Positions 25,260 to 64,000 of a DNA stretch of 64,000 nt are shown here, one piece after another. Made by a program: the position numbers and the translations under genes. The first letter of the stretch is position 1. Every line of letters starts with the position of its first letter. Where the stretch lies: assembly GCA_001516025.1 (NCBI GenBank), contig LOEU01000036.1, positions 1-64,000 of the forward strand. Reading direction: 5' to 3'. The notes beneath the pieces were generated by a model. It was not told where the DNA came from. It worked only from the letters and a program-made list of their open reading frames with translations, and ran no database searches. The DNA comes from a bacterium BRH_c32. GTDB lineage: Bacteria > Bacteroidota > Ignavibacteria > Ignavibacteriales > Melioribacteraceae.

Positions 25260-25531
25260 GGACCGTTCTCCTTTTGTTTATTAAGTAAAACAATATCCAT
25301 CACCTTATTTTATGGCGATTTTTTGGACTGATAATCTTTCTCTCATACACAAAAATTATTAATCCCTGTCAATTTAGACTGATTATAATCAAGAAAGTTA
25401 CTTTTTTAATAATAAAACTTCTGTCGGTTACTATGAGATGGAGATATGATATTAATAGTAATTATGATATAATCCATTCTATTATTTCTTAAGATGCGTG
25501 ATTAAAAACTCAATTCATATCCTGTAACGCT

Positions 25532-26245
25532 TTACTTTTTATTTTGTTTCTCACTTCTTCTTAAAATATAATCCTGATACTTTTTATCTTTGAGTTCGCG
25601 GAGTGCACCCTTTGCAATCCATTGTGCGGATTTACTTTCGCTTGTAAGCAGTTCTTCGGAGAGATTAATTGCAGCTTTATTTAGCAATAAATTTCTTTTC
25701 CCAATTTGCCTTATGCACCAATTCACCGCTTTTTTTACAAAATTTCTTTCATCTGTGCTATATTTTTTTATCAGAGGGAAAAACGCAATAAAATCTTTAT
25801 CCTCTCTATTCTTATCATGAACCGAGAGGGAAGCCATTAGAACAAATCCCGCACGCCTTTGGTATTCACCCTCCTGATTGACCCATTTAAAGGCAAGATC
25901 ATATGCCAAAGGTGAATAATTAAAAAGTCTCATCAAAGTGCTATCGCATATATCCCACGAATTAAAATCTTGCATCCATTCATTCATCTGCTTAATTGTA
26001 AGTTTTTTGGGCTCGGCAAGATACCCTGCAAGTATTCGCGCATCATGAACTCCTGTTTGCCAAAGAAGTGATGCCACCTCATGATTTTTCTTATATTTTT
26101 TTGCTAATTCTTTAAAAAATTGAGATGAAGTTCCGAAACCATTCTCTACATTAATTCCAAAGCGTCTCATTCCATCAAGATTTTTCTGCGAAAAATTCTT
26201 TCTGAATTCTTCTAATATTTCTTTTACTATTTCTGAGTTATTCAT
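25532..26245 (-). CDS. AlkD-like DNA alkylation repair protein
   Basis: HEAT-like-repeat DNA glycosylase family that removes alkylated bases. 237 residues, normal size. SWDICDSTLMRLF corresponds to the conserved W-D segment of AlkD with the catalytic Asp, and VNWCIRQIGKRN to the second conserved Trp/Arg helix. Tandem helical pairs run through the whole protein. No signal peptide. It stands alone, 89 nt downstream of the DUF6544 gene on the same strand. Some family members lack glycosylase activity; the conserved residues here favour a real repair enzyme. Confidence 0.82.
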   Translation of the reverse strand: MNNSEIVKEILEEFRKNFSQKNLDGMRRFGINVENGFGTSSQFFKELAKKYKKNHEVASLLWQTGVHDARILAGYLAEPKKLTIKQMNEWMQDFNSWDICDSTLMRLFNYSPLAYDLAFKWVNQEGEYQRRAGFVLMASLSVHDKNREDKDFIAFFPLIKKYSTDERNFVKKAVNWCIRQIGKRNLLLNKAAINLSEELLTSESKSAQWIAKGALRELKDKKYQDYILRRSEKQNKK

Positions 26246-54263: not shown

Positions 54264-54605
54264 ATGAACATACAGATATTTGGCACGGTTAAGTGCTTCG
54301 ATACAAAAAAGACCGAACGCTTTTTTAAAGAAAGAAAAATTCCATATCATTTCAGAAATCTTGCCGAAAAGGGAATCTCTCCGGGAGAATTGGATAGCAT
54401 CAAACGTGTTTATACCGTAGAAGATTTAATTGATACGGAAGGGAAAAGATACCGTGAGCGAAATTTAAAATTTATGACTCACGATATCGAAACTGAATTA
54501 CTTAATGATCCTCTGCTATTCAAGACACCGATCGTAAGGAATGGCAAAGAAGTAACCCTCGGCTACCAACCGGATATCTGGAAGAAGTGGTCTGACCAAG
54601 ATTAA
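54264..54605 (+). CDS. ArsC/Spx-family thioredoxin-fold protein
   Basis: Product of 113 residues, normal for the family. The N-terminal strand-loop has a single Cys11 (FGTVKCFDTKK); Spx and YffB-type ArsC relatives share this layout. KTERFFKERKIPYHFRNLAEKGISPGEL and LFKTPIVRNGKEVTLGYQPDIWKKW follow the family. No second resolving Cys. An arsenate reductase role is not supported: there are no ars neighbours. Just before the 10-bp tandem repeat. Confidence 0.83.
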   Translation: MNIQIFGTVKCFDTKKTERFFKERKIPYHFRNLAEKGISPGELDSIKRVYTVEDLIDTEGKRYRERNLKFMTHDIETELLNDPLLFKTPIVRNGKEVTLGYQPDIWKKWSDQD

Positions 54606-54610
54606 TATCG

Positions 54611-54730
54611 AACTTGCATCGGATGGCACTAGGTTGCACTTATATGATTCCAAGTGCACTAATCTGCACCGAACCGCACTGAATTGTTTGTAACTGCACC
54701 CAATAGCACCAAGCTGCATCAGTATGCTGC
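54611..54730. repeat. degenerate 10-bp tandem repeat, about 12 units
   Basis: Twelve consecutive 10-base units fit the pattern NANYTGCACY (examples: AGGTTGCACT, AATCTGCACC, GAACCGCACT, TAACTGCACC). The sixth base is G in all twelve; C follows in ten and A follows that in nine. Three units (54641, 54681, 54721) have decayed GCAC cores but keep the phase. The period is close to one DNA turn. It fills nearly all of the 138-nt gap between the convergent ArsC/Spx-like and Lnt-like genes and overlaps neither. Confidence 0.8.
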
Positions 54731-54743
54731 AACAATTAGTCTT

Positions 54744-56450: not shown

Positions 56451-59400
56451 CTATCCCCTCCCCACTTTAATATTCACGTTATGCTCTTTTTTGTCATTCA
56501 CTAATGGAATATAATTTCTATTTATTTCTTTACCATATTCATTAATTGAAACAAATCCTTTATCTCCATCCACCTGATTAATTGTAATATTATATCGTGT
56601 TTCATGATAGTGATAAAATATTTTGTAGCTGTTCCAATCCTTAGGGATGCATGGATTAATATATAGTTTATCTATTTCAAGATGCAACCCAAGTAATGAT
56701 TCAATTATTAAACGGTACATCCAACCGGCAGATCCGGTGTACCAAGTCCAGCCACCTCTTCCTGTATGAGGTGCCGCCGCATAAACATCCGCAGCAACCA
56801 CGTACGGCTCTACTTTATAGGTCTCGATTCCCTCGACCGAATGACCATGATTAACGGGATTAATAATATTAAATAGTTCCCACGCATTTTTTCTATCACC
56901 TATTTGAGCAAAAGCCATTACAGCCCAAATAGCCGCATGAGTATATTGCCCTCCATTTTCCCTTACTCCCGGCACGTATCCTTTTATATATCCCGGTTCT
57001 AATTTTGATTTATCGAATGGGGGATCCAAAAGTTGAATTAATCCGCTCTCCCTTTTAACTAAGTATTTATTAAGTGAATCGATTGATTTAAGCGAATGAT
57101 CTTTTTCTCCGGCACCCGAAATAACTGACCAGCTTTGAGAGATAGAATCGATCTTACATTCTTCATTGATTTTTGAACCAAGCGGAGTGCCGTCATCAAA
57201 ATACGCTCTTCTATACCACTGACCATCCCAGCTATTCTTTTCAATATTTGCCTGCAAGGTCGTCATCTCTTTTTCGCATTGCTCTATAAATTTAGTATCG
57301 TTTTTTATCGCTGCAATTTTTTTGAATTGCGACAATACTTCATAAAGGAAAAATGCTAACCATACGCTTTCTCCTTTTCCTTCCATTCCGATTAGATTCA
57401 TACCATCATTCCAATCGCCGCCGCCAATAAGCGGAAGTCCGTGTTCACCAAAATTCAGTCCTCTTTGGATTGCTCTTTGGCAATGCTGATATAAAGTGCC
57501 GGAATTAGATGAAATAACCGGCAGCTCATAATAGGAATCATCTTCGGCTCTTAGCGGACGTCCTTCGAGGAAGTTCCTGCTTTCATCAAGCACACCAATA
57601 TCCCCCGTGCTTAATACGTATCGGCTTACAGCTAATGGAAGCCATAAATAATCATCTGAGAAATGTGTCCTGACTCCGCGTCCCAAAGGTGGATGCCACC
57701 AATGCTGAACGTCTCCTTCGATAAATTGATGACTAGAATTTATAAGCAATTGCTCACGTGTAATTTCCGGCTTGGAATGAATCAATGCCATTACATCCTG
57801 CAATTGATCTCTAAATCCGAATGCACCGCCGGATTGATAGTAACCGCTTCTGCCCCAAATTCGGCATGATAAAGTTTGATAGAATAGCCAACCATTTGCA
57901 AGTACATCCAAAGACTTATCGGGAGTCTCGGTCTGGACTGCGCCGAGTGTCTCTTTCCAGAACTGCCATACTTTCTCTATCGCTTCTTGAGCTTTATTAA
58001 AGCCACTGTATCGAGTAACTAATTCTTCAGCTTCATTGCGATTATTACCCGAGCCGAGTTTAAAGACAAGTTCATATTCTCTCCCGTTTTCAAATTCGAA
58101 TGGAACTTGAATAGCCGCGCATGGATCTAATCCAGCGCCTGATTTCCCCGATAGATGCGCTAATTTCATGGCAGCGGGATTTTCTAATGTTCCATTCCGC
58201 CCAATAAATTCAGTGCGATTACATGTAAATGAAATTTTATCGTTATCAACTTGGAAAAATGAAACCTTCTCCGGGAAATCGTGATTGTATGAATTCCGTG
58301 CAAAGATAGCTCCCATCGAAGTATCAATTTCACTAACTACGTGCATTGAAGTCTTTGAAGGAAGATCACCAAGAACTAATTGAACAAATCCGTAAACTGA
58401 TAATTTTCGTGCTCTGCCCGAATCGTTCCAAATTTTCAAAGTAGAAAATTTTATTGAATCATCAATTGCCACATATACCCAAAGTTCGGTTCGTATTCCG
58501 GTTTCTTTATGTTCAAAAACAGTGTAACCAAATCCATGACGTGTTACATATTTTCCATGCCCGCGTTTCGGAAGTGGTGTGGGGGACCAATAGTAACCGG
58601 TCTCATCGTCTCGAATATAAAACAGCTCTCCGCTCACATCAGAAACAGGATCGTTATTCCATGGCGATAAACGATATTCATGTGCATTCTCATACCACGT
58701 ATAAGCTATTCCGCTTTCGGTTACTATCGTTCCAAATTTCGGATTCGCAATCACGTTAGACCATGGCATCGGTGTAATTTTATCACCTGTGGAAACTATA
58801 ATATACTCACGTCCATCAGGAGTGAAACCACCATATCCATTAAAGAATATCAGTCCTTCTCCATGAAATTCCTCCACTTGAGTTTGAGGCGGAGAATAAA
58901 CTCTGATATTTTTTAATCTCTCTACTGTAAATTCTTTACTTCTAAGTTTATTTACCTGTGCTTCGAGTGTGCCGGAGGTATCTGTAATTATTACTCGTGC
59001 AACGGTCTGCGTTAAAATCCTATCTTCATCCGAGATTTGATCTGTTAGGCGTACAAATACACCACCCGGTCGATCAATTTTATTCGCTTCAATATTAGCA
59101 GAAACCAAACGTAATATCTGCTCTTGAAGTTCCTGTCTATATCCGGCATGATCATCATTCCAAATAACGAGATCAACCGATAGACCTTTTATACTCCAAT
59201 ACGAATGCGCCTTTAACATCGATAGAACTAAATCGATATTTTTTATATCTTCTATTACAACAAGTACAATTGGTAAATCGCCCGAAATAGCATAAGCCCA
59301 AAGAGCTGATTGACCTTGTCTATTCCGTGCAATTATTGATGGATTAGCACGTAATAAATGATTTGAATAAACTATCGAATTAGCAACCTTGCTATAAAGC

Positions 59401-62400
59401 TGTGAATCCGATGCGGTTGCATTTATTTGTCTTAATATTACCTGTGAGTGAGTCCATGAAAGTTCGAATACACGATTAGATAAACGTCTATCCTGATATC
59501 TTTCAATCAAGGATAACGCTTGAGAACGAGTTTCACCGATTCCATAAATTATATCTATCGTTGCGGTTCTATCCGGCTCAAGTTTAATGCGATATCTCAC
59601 TGATGCGATCGGATCGAGAACAGAACCTTCGCTATTAGATAATTCAGCATTGCCCGTTAATGCAATGGGATTTGCAGTTGTATTGCCTCTTCCAAGAAAT
59701 TTTGCTCTATCGGTCTCAAAAGAAACCTCTAATATTTCAGCTTTACGGACAGCGATTGTATGCAGCATCCATTGTGTTTTTTCATCACTCGAACGAGGTC
59801 TCCTACGAGCTAATATTGCCTGCTTATCTTTTATTATCTCCGTCTGTACAAATAAATTACCAAATGCAGGATGCGCATTATCGGCACTCGGCGGATTCAT
59901 TACTATCTCTGCATAACTTGTAATTTCAATTTCGCGGGCGAACTTTGCTTTATTCGTAAGATGAAGTCTCCTTATTTCTATATCATCTTCCGGCGAAATA
60001 ACAATCTGTGTATTTGCTTCATAATTAAGATCTTTTCTCTTAAATTCTGCATTTCCTTCAGAGAAGACAGCTTCATAAGTTTTTGATTCTTTCAGAGTCG
60101 GCTGATAAGTATTGGACCAAAATTCTCTAGTTTGAATATCTTTTAGATAGCAAAATGCTCCCCAATTATCGGTAGTAATATCCTCACGCCAGCGCGTAAG
60201 AGCTAAGTTCTTCCATCTGCTATAACCGACTCCGGCACTTGTTACCATTATATGATATCTTCCGTTTGAAAGAAGTTGAGTCTCTGGTACTATGATATTT
60301 GGATTGGTAATAATTCTAATCGGCGTTTCAGAGGCAAACACATTAGTTTGTGTATCTGAAAATACGGTAGAACTAATATTAGAGAATGCTGATAGTGGAA
60401 TTCTTTCTTGAAGCAATAATAATGCAGCATCAAAAGATGGATCGGAAACGAATCTTTTCTGCATCGGAGAATCCAATAATAGATGTGTTAATGCAAGGAG
60501 AGTCATTCCTTCATGATGCACCATAAACGATTTAACTATTTCATTCGATTTCCCTCTTGGCAGACGAGCGGGAGTATAATCCACGGCTTCATAAAAACCA
60601 TATCTACCCACCACACCTTGATCGGCAAGTGTCTGAAGATTCTTACATGATGCTTCCGGTTCTACCATTAATCCGAGAGCCGAAGCATAAGGAGCTATTA
60701 CCAAATCTTCAGCTAATCCACGCTTAAGTCCAATTCCCGGGACACCGAATGCTCTATACTGATAATTAAGATTTACATCAGATGCATTATATCCTGATTC
60801 CGAAATACCCCAAGGCACTCCCCTCTGTTTTCCGTAATTTATTTGCCGCTTCACTACCGATTTATAAGTCTGATCTAATAAAGTATTTTCATAATTCGGC
60901 ATTATTAATAAAGGCATCAGATATTCGAACATCGAACCGCTCCATGAAAGGAGAACAGGACTGCCGCCCGCAGCAGTTATTAGCCGCCCCAATGCAAACC
61001 AACTTTCTTGCGGCAAATGCCCATAAGCAATTGCAATATAACTTGCTAAACGGGCTTCGGAAGCTAATAGATCATAATAACTTCCATCTTTTTTATTCTT
61101 CTCTACGTTATACCCGATTGAAAGCAGATGCCTTGAAGTGCTATATAAGAAATCATATTCGATCATAGATAGACTATATGTTTGATTAGCAAGCGTTCTT
61201 ATAGCTTCTATCTTTTCGTTTGCCTTTTGATTCGATTGTATAATTAATTGATTCAATTCATTAAGCTTCTTCTTTCTTTCGCTCGTTATCTCCCGATTTA
61301 ATTCTCCTTCTATAATCGGAATAAATTCATTTTGCAAATTTGATAATTCATTTAAGGAAGGAATATTTACTTTAAACGGGAATGAATCACTTATATCGAT
61401 GAACTCTGCAACCGTTACCCAAGGGACTAAATCTTTTACCTGATCGATTGCATTATAAGTTTGCTTTTGCAGCGAAATAAGCCAGTATTTTGAGTCGCCG
61501 TCTTGAACGTCTATTAGATCTATTTTATTTACTAATTGAGAAATCTCATTAAGATTCTCCCAAAACATTTTTAATGAATCTATCGAGGTTCTTTTAATTG
61601 ATTTGAATGCTAATTGCAATTCATTAATTGGGAAAAAATCTCTTTTATCCAATCCTTCGATAGCTATCATAAAAGTATCTTCCAAGCCATCGAATAATTT
61701 ATGACTAACAATTTGTTCCTCGGGAAGTGTAAGCAGCCCCTGCCTAAGAGTTAAAATTAATCCTGATAAATTACCGCTATCAACCGATGATACATACAAT
61801 GGTTTTAGAGGAGTTAGAGTTAAAGTATCATACCAATTATAAAAGTGTCCTCTAAAACGTTCTAATTTTTCCATCGTCTTAATTGTATTGGAAACACGAT
61901 CAACCAATTCACCTGAGGTGATATAACCAAAATCATAAGCAGATAAATTGGCTATCAGCGCCATACCAATATTAGTTGGTGAAGTTCTATGTGCAATTAT
62001 TCCATGAGGAACTTCTTGATAATTATCAGGCGGAAGCCAATTTTCATTTTCATTTACAAACGTATCGAAGTATGCCCACGTCTTGCGAGTAATGTGTCTC
62101 AAGAACTCTTTTTCCGATTCGCTTAGCATTGACTGCTTTGATTTTAGAGGCAGACTTATCCACCAGTTAACTATCGGTGAAAGTGCCCAAACAAAAAGTA
62201 TAGGCAGAGCTATTATAGGTACTGTATAACCCGTAAAATAAAATGCAGCAATTACAGCCGCTACAAATAAAGGTGAGAATAAATTCTTTTTAAATGTATC
62301 GGCAAGATTCAGTCTTTGGTTTTTTCCAAAGATATTAGAAGGAGTCCATTCCAATAAACGCGTTTTAGAAAATGTCATTCGCCAAAACACTCTTGAGATT

Positions 62401-64000
62401 GCATCTAACGCGAATGAAGCTTCAAAGGGAAGATTGATAAACGTAAAAAGTAATTGATATAAATACACTTTACTATTATTTACGAATGCAATAAGATGCT
62501 GTCTTAATAATATCTCTTTCTGCTTTTCAAATAGATCAACAATTAATTTGAATATCGCGGGAATGAATATTATTCCGATAACCGAGAAAGTCCAGAATAA
62601 CGGATTAGGCGAAAAGAACCAGGCATAAAGGAGCATCAAAACATAAGCCGGTGTAACCAAACTGCGCCTTAAATTATCAAATATTTTCCAACGTGAGAGT
62701 TTTGATAAAGGATTTTTTCTTCGCTTACCATTCATACCCGGTACTCTTGGAAGTATCCATCGCCAAATCTGCCAATCGCCTCTTATCCAGCGATGTCTTC
62801 TATTTACATCTATATTATAGCAGCATGGGTATTCTTCAAGCAATTGGACATCGCTTAATAAACCCGATCTAACGTGGCAACCCTCAAGAAGATCATGACT
62901 AAGAATTTTATTTTCAGGAAATCGGTCTTTAACAATCTTTTGAAAGATATCTATATCATAAATTGCTTTACCAATATAAGAACCCTCGCCAAAGATATCT
63001 TGATATACATCCGAGACGGTTCTTGTATAAGGATCGATACCGGCATTTCCTCCGAATAGTTTTGCGTAGCGCGAGCTAAGTGTGCCCGGGAGACTAATCT
63101 CCACTGCCGGCTGCAAAATTGTATATCCATCGGTTACGCATTCTTTCGATTCATCATACTTTGCTTTATTAAGCGGATGCGCAATAGTGCCAATTAATTG
63201 ATAAGCCGTATCAAGAGGTAGATCAGTATCTGCATCTAATGTTATAATATATTTTGTTGATTTTAATACATCCGTATTACCGACTATTAGAGAAAAACAA
63301 TCCCTCGCTCCGTCCCTTAAATATGAATTTATGTCTTCGAGCTTTCCTCTTTTACGCTCGTAACCCATCCAAAGTTTTTCGGCAGGATTCCATTTCCTCT
63401 GACGGTGGAATAAGTAAAATATATCCTTTCGAATATCTTTATATTTTTCATTGAGTTCATCTATCTTTTCTTTTGCATAAGAAAGAAGCATTTCATCTTC
63501 GGGAAGATGCTCTTTGGAGGAATCTTTATAATCGGTCAATAGAGAAAAGTATAAGTTTTTGCGTCTATTAGCCAAGAATCTGATTTCCAAAGATTCTACA
63601 AGTTCTTTAATTCCATCTTTACTCGTAATCATACTCGGCACTACTACAAGTGTCCTGCTTCTATCGGGAATTTTTTTAGAGTAATCCATTCGAGGCAAAG
63701 AAGTTGGCTTTATTATTAAAGTTGATAACCAATTAATTAATGATACTGCTAATTGACTGACTGCAAAAAATGATATTATCCCTAGTGCTATAAGTGAATA
63801 TTCTTTTATTCCTTCAACGTAACCTTTATGCACTAATGCGGCAGTGAAAAGTGCAGTTAATAAAAATATAGAACCAAAGAACAACGGGAATGGAATTTTA
63901 TTCCCTTTTCGTTTAAGGTAAGAGCTGATAGGAAGTTTTGATTTTACTGCATCTTCGAGTTGATAAATTCCTCTATCAACAAGATAATATCCTACATGAG
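56451..64000 (-). CDS. ndvB: cyclic beta-1,2-glucan synthase (GT84 + GH189-like + GH94), 5' end outside window
   Basis: Very large inner-membrane enzyme, at least 2,516 residues visible. The frame stays open through base 64000, with HVGYYLVDRG and IYQLEDAVKS upstream of the TTG at 63884, so the true start lies outside the window. Order of domains: membrane segments; GT84 glucosyltransferase (LDADTD near 63225 and RHRWIRGDWQIWRW near 62795); a glucoamylase-like domain (WGISESGYNASDVNLNYQYR near 60800); then two GH94-type modules, with the catalytic-site motif GGGDWNDGMN near 57410. Makes cyclic beta-1,2-glucans, which act in osmoadaptation and the periplasm. Confidence 0.93.
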   Translation of the reverse strand, partial: HVGYYLVDRGIYQLEDAVKSKLPISSYLKRKGNKIPFPLFFGSIFLLTALFTAALVHKGYVEGIKEYSLIALGIISFFAVSQLAVSLINWLSTLIIKPTSLPRMDYSKKIPDRSRTLVVVPSMITSKDGIKELVESLEIRFLANRRKNLYFSLLTDYKDSSKEHLPEDEMLLSYAKEKIDELNEKYKDIRKDIFYLFHRQRKWNPAEKLWMGYERKRGKLEDINSYLRDGARDCFSLIVGNTDVLKSTKYIITLDADTDLPLDTAYQLIGTIAHPLNKAKYDESKECVTDGYTILQPAVEISLPGTLSSRYAKLFGGNAGIDPYTRTVSDVYQDIFGEGSYIGKAIYDIDIFQKIVKDRFPENKILSHDLLEGCHVRSGLLSDVQLLEEYPCCYNIDVNRRHRWIRGDWQIWRWILPRVPGMNGKRRKNPLSKLSRWKIFDNLRRSLVTPAYVLMLLYAWFFSPNPLFWTFSVIGIIFIPAIFKLIVDLFEKQKEILLRQHLIAFVNNSKVYLYQLLFTFINLPFEASFALDAISRVFWRMTFSKTRLLEWTPSNIFGKNQRLNLADTFKKNLFSPLFVAAVIAAFYFTGYTVPIIALPILFVWALSPIVNWWISLPLKSKQSMLSESEKEFLRHITRKTWAYFDTFVNENENWLPPDNYQEVPHGIIAHRTSPTNIGMALIANLSAYDFGYITSGELVDRVSNTIKTMEKLERFRGHFYNWYDTLTLTPLKPLYVSSVDSGNLSGLILTLRQGLLTLPEEQIVSHKLFDGLEDTFMIAIEGLDKRDFFPINELQLAFKSIKRTSIDSLKMFWENLNEISQLVNKIDLIDVQDGDSKYWLISLQKQTYNAIDQVKDLVPWVTVAEFIDISDSFPFKVNIPSLNELSNLQNEFIPIIEGELNREITSERKKKLNELNQLIIQSNQKANEKIEAIRTLANQTYSLSMIEYDFLYSTSRHLLSIGYNVEKNKKDGSYYDLLASEARLASYIAIAYGHLPQESWFALGRLITAAGGSPVLLSWSGSMFEYLMPLLIMPNYENTLLDQTYKSVVKRQINYGKQRGVPWGISESGYNASDVNLNYQYRAFGVPGIGLKRGLAEDLVIAPYASALGLMVEPEASCKNLQTLADQGVVGRYGFYEAVDYTPARLPRGKSNEIVKSFMVHHEGMTLLALTHLLLDSPMQKRFVSDPSFDAALLLLQERIPLSAFSNISSTVFSDTQTNVFASETPIRIITNPNIIVPETQLLSNGRYHIMVTSAGVGYSRWKNLALTRWREDITTDNWGAFCYLKDIQTREFWSNTYQPTLKESKTYEAVFSEGNAEFKRKDLNYEANTQIVISPEDDIEIRRLHLTNKAKFAREIEITSYAEIVMNPPSADNAHPAFGNLFVQTEIIKDKQAILARRRPRSSDEKTQWMLHTIAVRKAEILEVSFETDRAKFLGRGNTTANPIALTGNAELSNSEGSVLDPIASVRYRIKLEPDRTATIDIIYGIGETRSQALSLIERYQDRRLSNRVFELSWTHSQVILRQINATASDSQLYSKVANSIVYSNHLLRANPSIIARNRQGQSALWAYAISGDLPIVLVVIEDIKNIDLVLSMLKAHSYWSIKGLSVDLVIWNDDHAGYRQELQEQILRLVSANIEANKIDRPGGVFVRLTDQISDEDRILTQTVARVIITDTSGTLEAQVNKLRSKEFTVERLKNIRVYSPPQTQVEEFHGEGLIFFNGYGGFTPDGREYIIVSTGDKITPMPWSNVIANPKFGTIVTESGIAYTWYENAHEYRLSPWNNDPVSDVSGELFYIRDDETGYYWSPTPLPKRGHGKYVTRHGFGYTVFEHKETGIRTELWVYVAIDDSIKFSTLKIWNDSGRARKLSVYGFVQLVLGDLPSKTSMHVVSEIDTSMGAIFARNSYNHDFPEKVSFFQVDNDKISFTCNRTEFIGRNGTLENPAAMKLAHLSGKSGAGLDPCAAIQVPFEFENGREYELVFKLGSGNNRNEAEELVTRYSGFNKAQEAIEKVWQFWKETLGAVQTETPDKSLDVLANGWLFYQTLSCRIWGRSGYYQSGGAFGFRDQLQDVMALIHSKPEITREQLLINSSHQFIEGDVQHWWHPPLGRGVRTHFSDDYLWLPLAVSRYVLSTGDIGVLDESRNFLEGRPLRAEDDSYYELPVISSNSGTLYQHCQRAIQRGLNFGEHGLPLIGGGDWNDGMNLIGMEGKGESVWLAFFLYEVLSQFKKIAAIKNDTKFIEQCEKEMTTLQANIEKNSWDGQWYRRAYFDDGTPLGSKINEECKIDSISQSWSVISGAGEKDHSLKSIDSLNKYLVKRESGLIQLLDPPFDKSKLEPGYIKGYVPGVRENGGQYTHAAIWAVMAFAQIGDRKNAWELFNIINPVNHGHSVEGIETYKVEPYVVAADVYAAAPHTGRGGWTWYTGSAGWMYRLIIESLLGLHLEIDKLYINPCIPKDWNSYKIFYHYHETRYNITINQVDGDKGFVSINEYGKEINRNYIPLVNDKKEHNVNIKVGRG

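Follow-up and report, generated by a model that had tools for sequence, protein, structure and literature searches.

Helically phased 10-bp direct-repeat arrays with a TGCAC core at three loci of the genome of bacterium BRH_c32

A 10-bp repeat between two convergent genes

The window analysed here is a stretch of 64,000 nucleotides from the genome of bacterium BRH_c32, a member of the Ignavibacteriales. Within it an ArsC/Spx-like gene and an Lnt-like gene converge, and the intergenic region between their ends at 54605 and 54744 consists of 10-bp units almost throughout (Table 1). The initial annotation had placed this repeat at 54611-54730, at distances of 6 nt and 14 nt from the two stop codons, and its coordinates, its 10-bp period, the convergent gene context and the spacing were all borne out. 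Further downstream of the Lnt-like gene lies a 2477-aa open reading frame on the minus strand (56451-63884) which by eye resembles cyclic glucan synthetases.

The self-identity of the array is 0.47-0.50 at lags of 10, 20, 30 and 40 nucleotides and about 0.13-0.35 at the remaining lags. Averaged over the four lags it amounts to 0.472, compared to 0.392 for the highest-scoring position in the rest of the 64 kb, and the 10-bp periodicity is clearly enriched over shuffled sequence, since dinucleotide shuffles gave a mean of 0.251 (sd 0.022, maximum 0.344) and none of 5000 reached the observed value. Even with a score of 30 the array escapes Tandem Repeats Finder, because the units are too unlike each other beyond the core. 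The same divergence qualifies the earlier description of TGCAC as a fixed core, which holds for the G, present in 12/12 units, but not for the motif as a whole: GCAY is exact in nine of the twelve units, GCAC in seven and TGCAC in four.

Table 1. Positions of the arrays and of the genes flanking the array in the window (coordinates refer to the window unless a contig is named)
Feature	Location	Strand	Remarks
ArsC/Spx-like flanking gene, 113 aa	54264..54605	+	Pfam ArsC, 31.6 bits
Phased array, 12 x 10 bp (12 units)	54608..54732	+	consensus (Y)T-G-C-A-C-Y-N-N-N; partial unit at each end
First invariant G (position 1, unit 1)	54616	+	further invariant Gs at 10-bp steps up to 54726
Lnt-like convergent flanking gene, 482 aa	54744..56192	-	Pfam CN_hydrolase, 41.9 bits
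Array locus on contig C1	C1:23430-24330 plus 25288-25558		~117 units, on both sides of a nucleotidyltransferase gene
Array locus at the C31 end and the C1 start	C31:49112-49312 + C1:1-403		60 units, overlapping in part

Three array loci in one genome

It had also been stated that no such array occurs elsewhere, which is correct for the window, the only range that the statement covered, but not for the genome. Pattern searches of the 3.49-Mb genome revealed two additional loci, and because the array recurs in this way, the outcome under which the initial annotation would have dropped its reading (no other copy together with no enrichment of the period) does not apply. Searches with reversed patterns gave zero matches every time, and a 486-kb sample taken from the genome contains no further array with a period of 7-15 that approaches these scores. 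The final bases of C31 recur at the start of C1, and so a single array was probably split there by the assembly.

At all three loci the arrays are intergenic, and they range in length from 12 to about 90 units. Their neighbours are ordinary genes that differ between the loci and include a DUF3108 gene, an aspartokinase gene and a gene for a T9SS-sorted CBM9 protein. At 3/3 loci GCAC reads along the sense strand of the upstream gene; at the window this orientation is uninformative because the flanking genes are convergent, and the two cases that are left prove nothing. Block duplications of 70 bp and 130 bp are visible within the long arrays, and there is no block homology between the array in the window and those at the other two loci. 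A coding role was rejected, as the 10-bp period runs through all reading frames and the open reading frames across the arrays are short.

Several features lie close to the arrays or recall them. The gene that separates the two C1 array segments (C1:24570-25199; L007:3571-4200) encodes a nucleotidyltransferase with an N-terminal MarR-type domain, belongs to a family that many relatives share and has a second homologue on C9. It was considered as a partner of the arrays and discarded, being present in 26 of the 58 genomes searched with no array near the related loci that were fetched. Directly before the long array, a 65-bp unit is repeated ~2.2 times (C1:23275-23419; L007:2276-2420). On contig C19, which also bears a terminase-like gene, four TGC(A/G)A units with 10-bp spacing are located just 5' of a small HTH_17-like gene (C19:24950-24984; L004:1490-1524) and could represent an excisionase-type operator.

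Conserved and free columns

Aligned on the invariant G, the 189 units of all arrays, which are not wholly independent because those at the C31 end and the C1 start overlap in part, yield the consensus given in Table 1. The core letters G, C, A and C reach 92%, 86%, 79% and 79%, respectively; position 5 is a pyrimidine in 84% and position 9 in 96% of the units, and the last column is T in 57%. Three positions are only weakly constrained (0.04-0.21 bits), and positions 6 and 8, with 0.04-0.06 bits over all units, are near random in each long array. All arrays agree in which columns are conserved and which are free, column homozygosity being correlated between them at r=0.66-0.90. The phase is held across the 189 units apart from a 9-bp step and an 11-bp step, both in the long array, which cancel each other.

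One explanation put forward for the repeat at the outset was a minisatellite decaying by point mutation. To model such decay, arrays that started uniform were mutated towards the mean identity observed, block duplication being included in some simulations and omitted in others (three settings, 120 runs each). The observed column contrast was reached in 0/120 runs per setting for arrays of 89 and of 40 units. For the 12-unit array of the window 0-3 of 120 neutral runs reached the observed column spread, one quarter to one third of the 12-unit runs having missed the target identity, and taken alone this array is the weaker evidence against neutrality.

Blocks duplicated within and between arrays provide a second line of evidence. 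In 48 substitutions from five block pairs, of which some pairs share units or derive from the array broken by the assembly, TGCAC differs at 15/230 sites (6.5%) and positions 5-9 differ at 33/230 (14.3%; Fisher p=0.009), while the comparison of core positions 1-4 with positions 6-8 gives p=0.04. The blocks were chosen by their similarity at positions 6-8, and hence any bias opposes the finding of a faster changing spacer. Although their counts are small, these comparisons provide moderate evidence that the core is constrained. Decay by point mutation alone is disfavoured, as the same core columns are kept everywhere beside near-random columns 6 and 8 and duplicated blocks differ about half as often in the core as elsewhere. 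The conserved columns could nevertheless be inherited in part, were the loci descended from a single array whose units already varied.

Distribution in other genomes

The initial annotation had suggested looking for the array in relatives. Searches of 96 relatives, none of which belongs to the same genus, of 390 other genomes of the class and of 394 other genomes of the phylum (overlapping samples) yielded no diverged YTGCAC array. Among the 96 relatives one short, near-uniform array was seen in a genome of the same order (G084:C1; L068:1500-1546), where five nearly identical GCACTTTAGC units occupy an intergenic position. Homogeneous 10-bp minisatellites built from other units occur in related genomes, among them G064, G270 and G360. 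In other genera neither the array nor the gene order is preserved at the orthologous place, which implies that the array is not an old or generally required feature.

Public genomes and viral contigs were scanned for five GCAC motifs at 10-bp distance. Among the matches listed, most are near-identical GC-rich minisatellites, and unrelated organisms or phages account for a few diverse arrays (L217, L284, L203, L125); these arrays show that the form can recur and do not imply a single family. The prophage contig L217 (4037-4136) contains ten diverged GCACRYNNTT units near a small HNH-type gene and a terminase-like gene. No TGCAC array of 10-bp period was found described in the literature.

Comparison with known phased repeats

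Two systems described previously are reminiscent of the arrays. The stbDRs of plasmid R388 are repeats of TTGCATCAT with 2-nt spacing which are bound by StbA (PMC3098194). Read from the plasmid record, their units are strongly diverged outside a TGCA core, and in being helically phased direct repeats with this core they resemble the arrays. However, the stbDRs have an 11-bp period and form sets of five units in a plasmid promoter beside stbA, whereas the arrays have a period of exactly 10 bp and a YTGCACY core in place of the R388 consensus, comprise many more units and lie among ordinary chromosomal genes. A search with R388 StbA gave no match in this genome at E<=1, the plasmid protein coming from a distant phylum and the search being run without a positive control.

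The MraZ boxes of the dcw promoter have the form (AAAGTGKN3)3 at 10 bp in Mollicutes (PMC5282649). They share with the arrays the 10-bp direct repeats and the combination of a 7-bp core with three free bases, but consist of 3-4 units in a promoter, 5' of mraZ, whereas the arrays sit downstream of genes. It has been considered that the arrays are decoy or additional MraZ sites, given the common period, the shared GTG that appears when the core is read on the opposite strand and the presence in this genome of mraZ (contig C25) with four 10-bp boxes in its promoter. This appears highly improbable, because GTG is followed by C in 92% of the array units and by G or T in MraZ boxes (PMC5282649), and relatives that have mraZ and the same form of box are without arrays. 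As either the period or the core differs, the arrays belong to neither the stbDRs nor the MraZ boxes.

Satellite, transcript signal or protein-binding array

The main rival to a protein-binding array is a functionless satellite. According to this explanation an old 10-bp minisatellite expanded through block duplication, reached three places and is now decaying, its column pattern having been handed down by an ancestral array whose units were diverse already. The block duplications inside the long arrays, the ordinary homogeneous minisatellites of related genomes, the lack of arrays in relatives and at the orthologous place and the unremarkable, dissimilar flanking genes would all be expected from such a history, and bacterial 10-bp minisatellites (VNTRs) likewise consist of head-to-tail units with block duplications. 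The VNTRs of related genomes are, however, built from near-identical units, which the array in the window, with column identities of 0.23 to 1.0, is not, while the arrays described here retain the core alone and have it in common at all three loci. In the long arrays uniform decay of a single unit fails to generate near-random columns beside others that are 80-95% conserved, and the lower rate of core change in duplicated blocks fits this history poorly, as does the nearly perfect phase. Nor is any recent common origin to be seen, given the lack of block homology between the window and the other loci. A functionless satellite is a real possibility, although a somewhat less likely one than the binding array.

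A role at the level of RNA, with the array serving as a Rho loading region or as the structured 3' end of the upstream transcript, is suggested by the position of the GCAC strand, which is the sense strand 3' of a gene at all three loci. This strand is pyrimidine-rich and oriented with the upstream gene throughout, albeit uninformatively in the window, and a search for an intrinsic terminator between the convergent genes there was negative. Yet on both strands the array folds no better than shuffled sequence (z of 0.06 and -0.22 in the window, and likewise for three other array pieces), and its most conserved letter is a G. Rho sites avoid G, and Rho does not need an exact 10-nt spacing. At the C1 start a GC-rich hairpin with a T-run separates the upstream gene from the array and already provides this gene with a likely terminator. 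A function in RNA is considered very unlikely.

The initial annotation had also raised the possibility of an array for a protein that binds one face of the helix. A short conserved core, a free spacer and a constant spacing close to one helix turn are typical of rows of protein sites and are all present here, and it is proposed, with a probability of about one half, that these lineage-restricted chromosomal direct-repeat arrays are phased rows of sites for a putative multimeric DNA-binding protein. The division into core and spacer columns and the phase favour this reading, although no binding protein was found, R388 StbA giving no match in a search of little weight and the MraZ core being different. 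Each 10-bp unit would comprise a short recognition site, YTGCACY, and a 3-bp spacer of indifferent sequence, and we infer that the constraint on the core comes from the protein. With a repeat of 10.0 bp, neighbouring sites point to almost the same side of the helix, and a multimeric protein could thus occupy many of them together, filling adjacent sites and coating or wrapping the intergenic DNA. In the window, where the array is located at the meeting point of convergent genes, this may block read-through or anchor the DNA. The helix repeat of DNA is ~10.5 bp per turn, and at this value an exact spacing of 10.0 bp drifts by about half a turn over 12 units, which speaks against the binding array. 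A more ambitious form of the proposal envisages a chromosomal satellite system that evolved recently in one lineage, in which several intergenic arrays of up to about 90 helically phased YTGCACY sites are served by a putative dedicated protein, as yet undescribed, which would form long filaments and have a role in chromosome anchoring, segregation or domain boundaries; this is regarded as unlikely.

To our knowledge, phased direct-repeat arrays are known chiefly from plasmid centromeres and short promoter operators. Scans based on period catch constrained-looking arrays that are overlooked by a tandem-repeat finder. If the binding array is real, dozens of units that keep only their core in a strict 10-bp register among ordinary genes would be a sign of a DNA-binding protein yet to be described, which may have a role in transcription boundaries or in the organisation of the chromosome.
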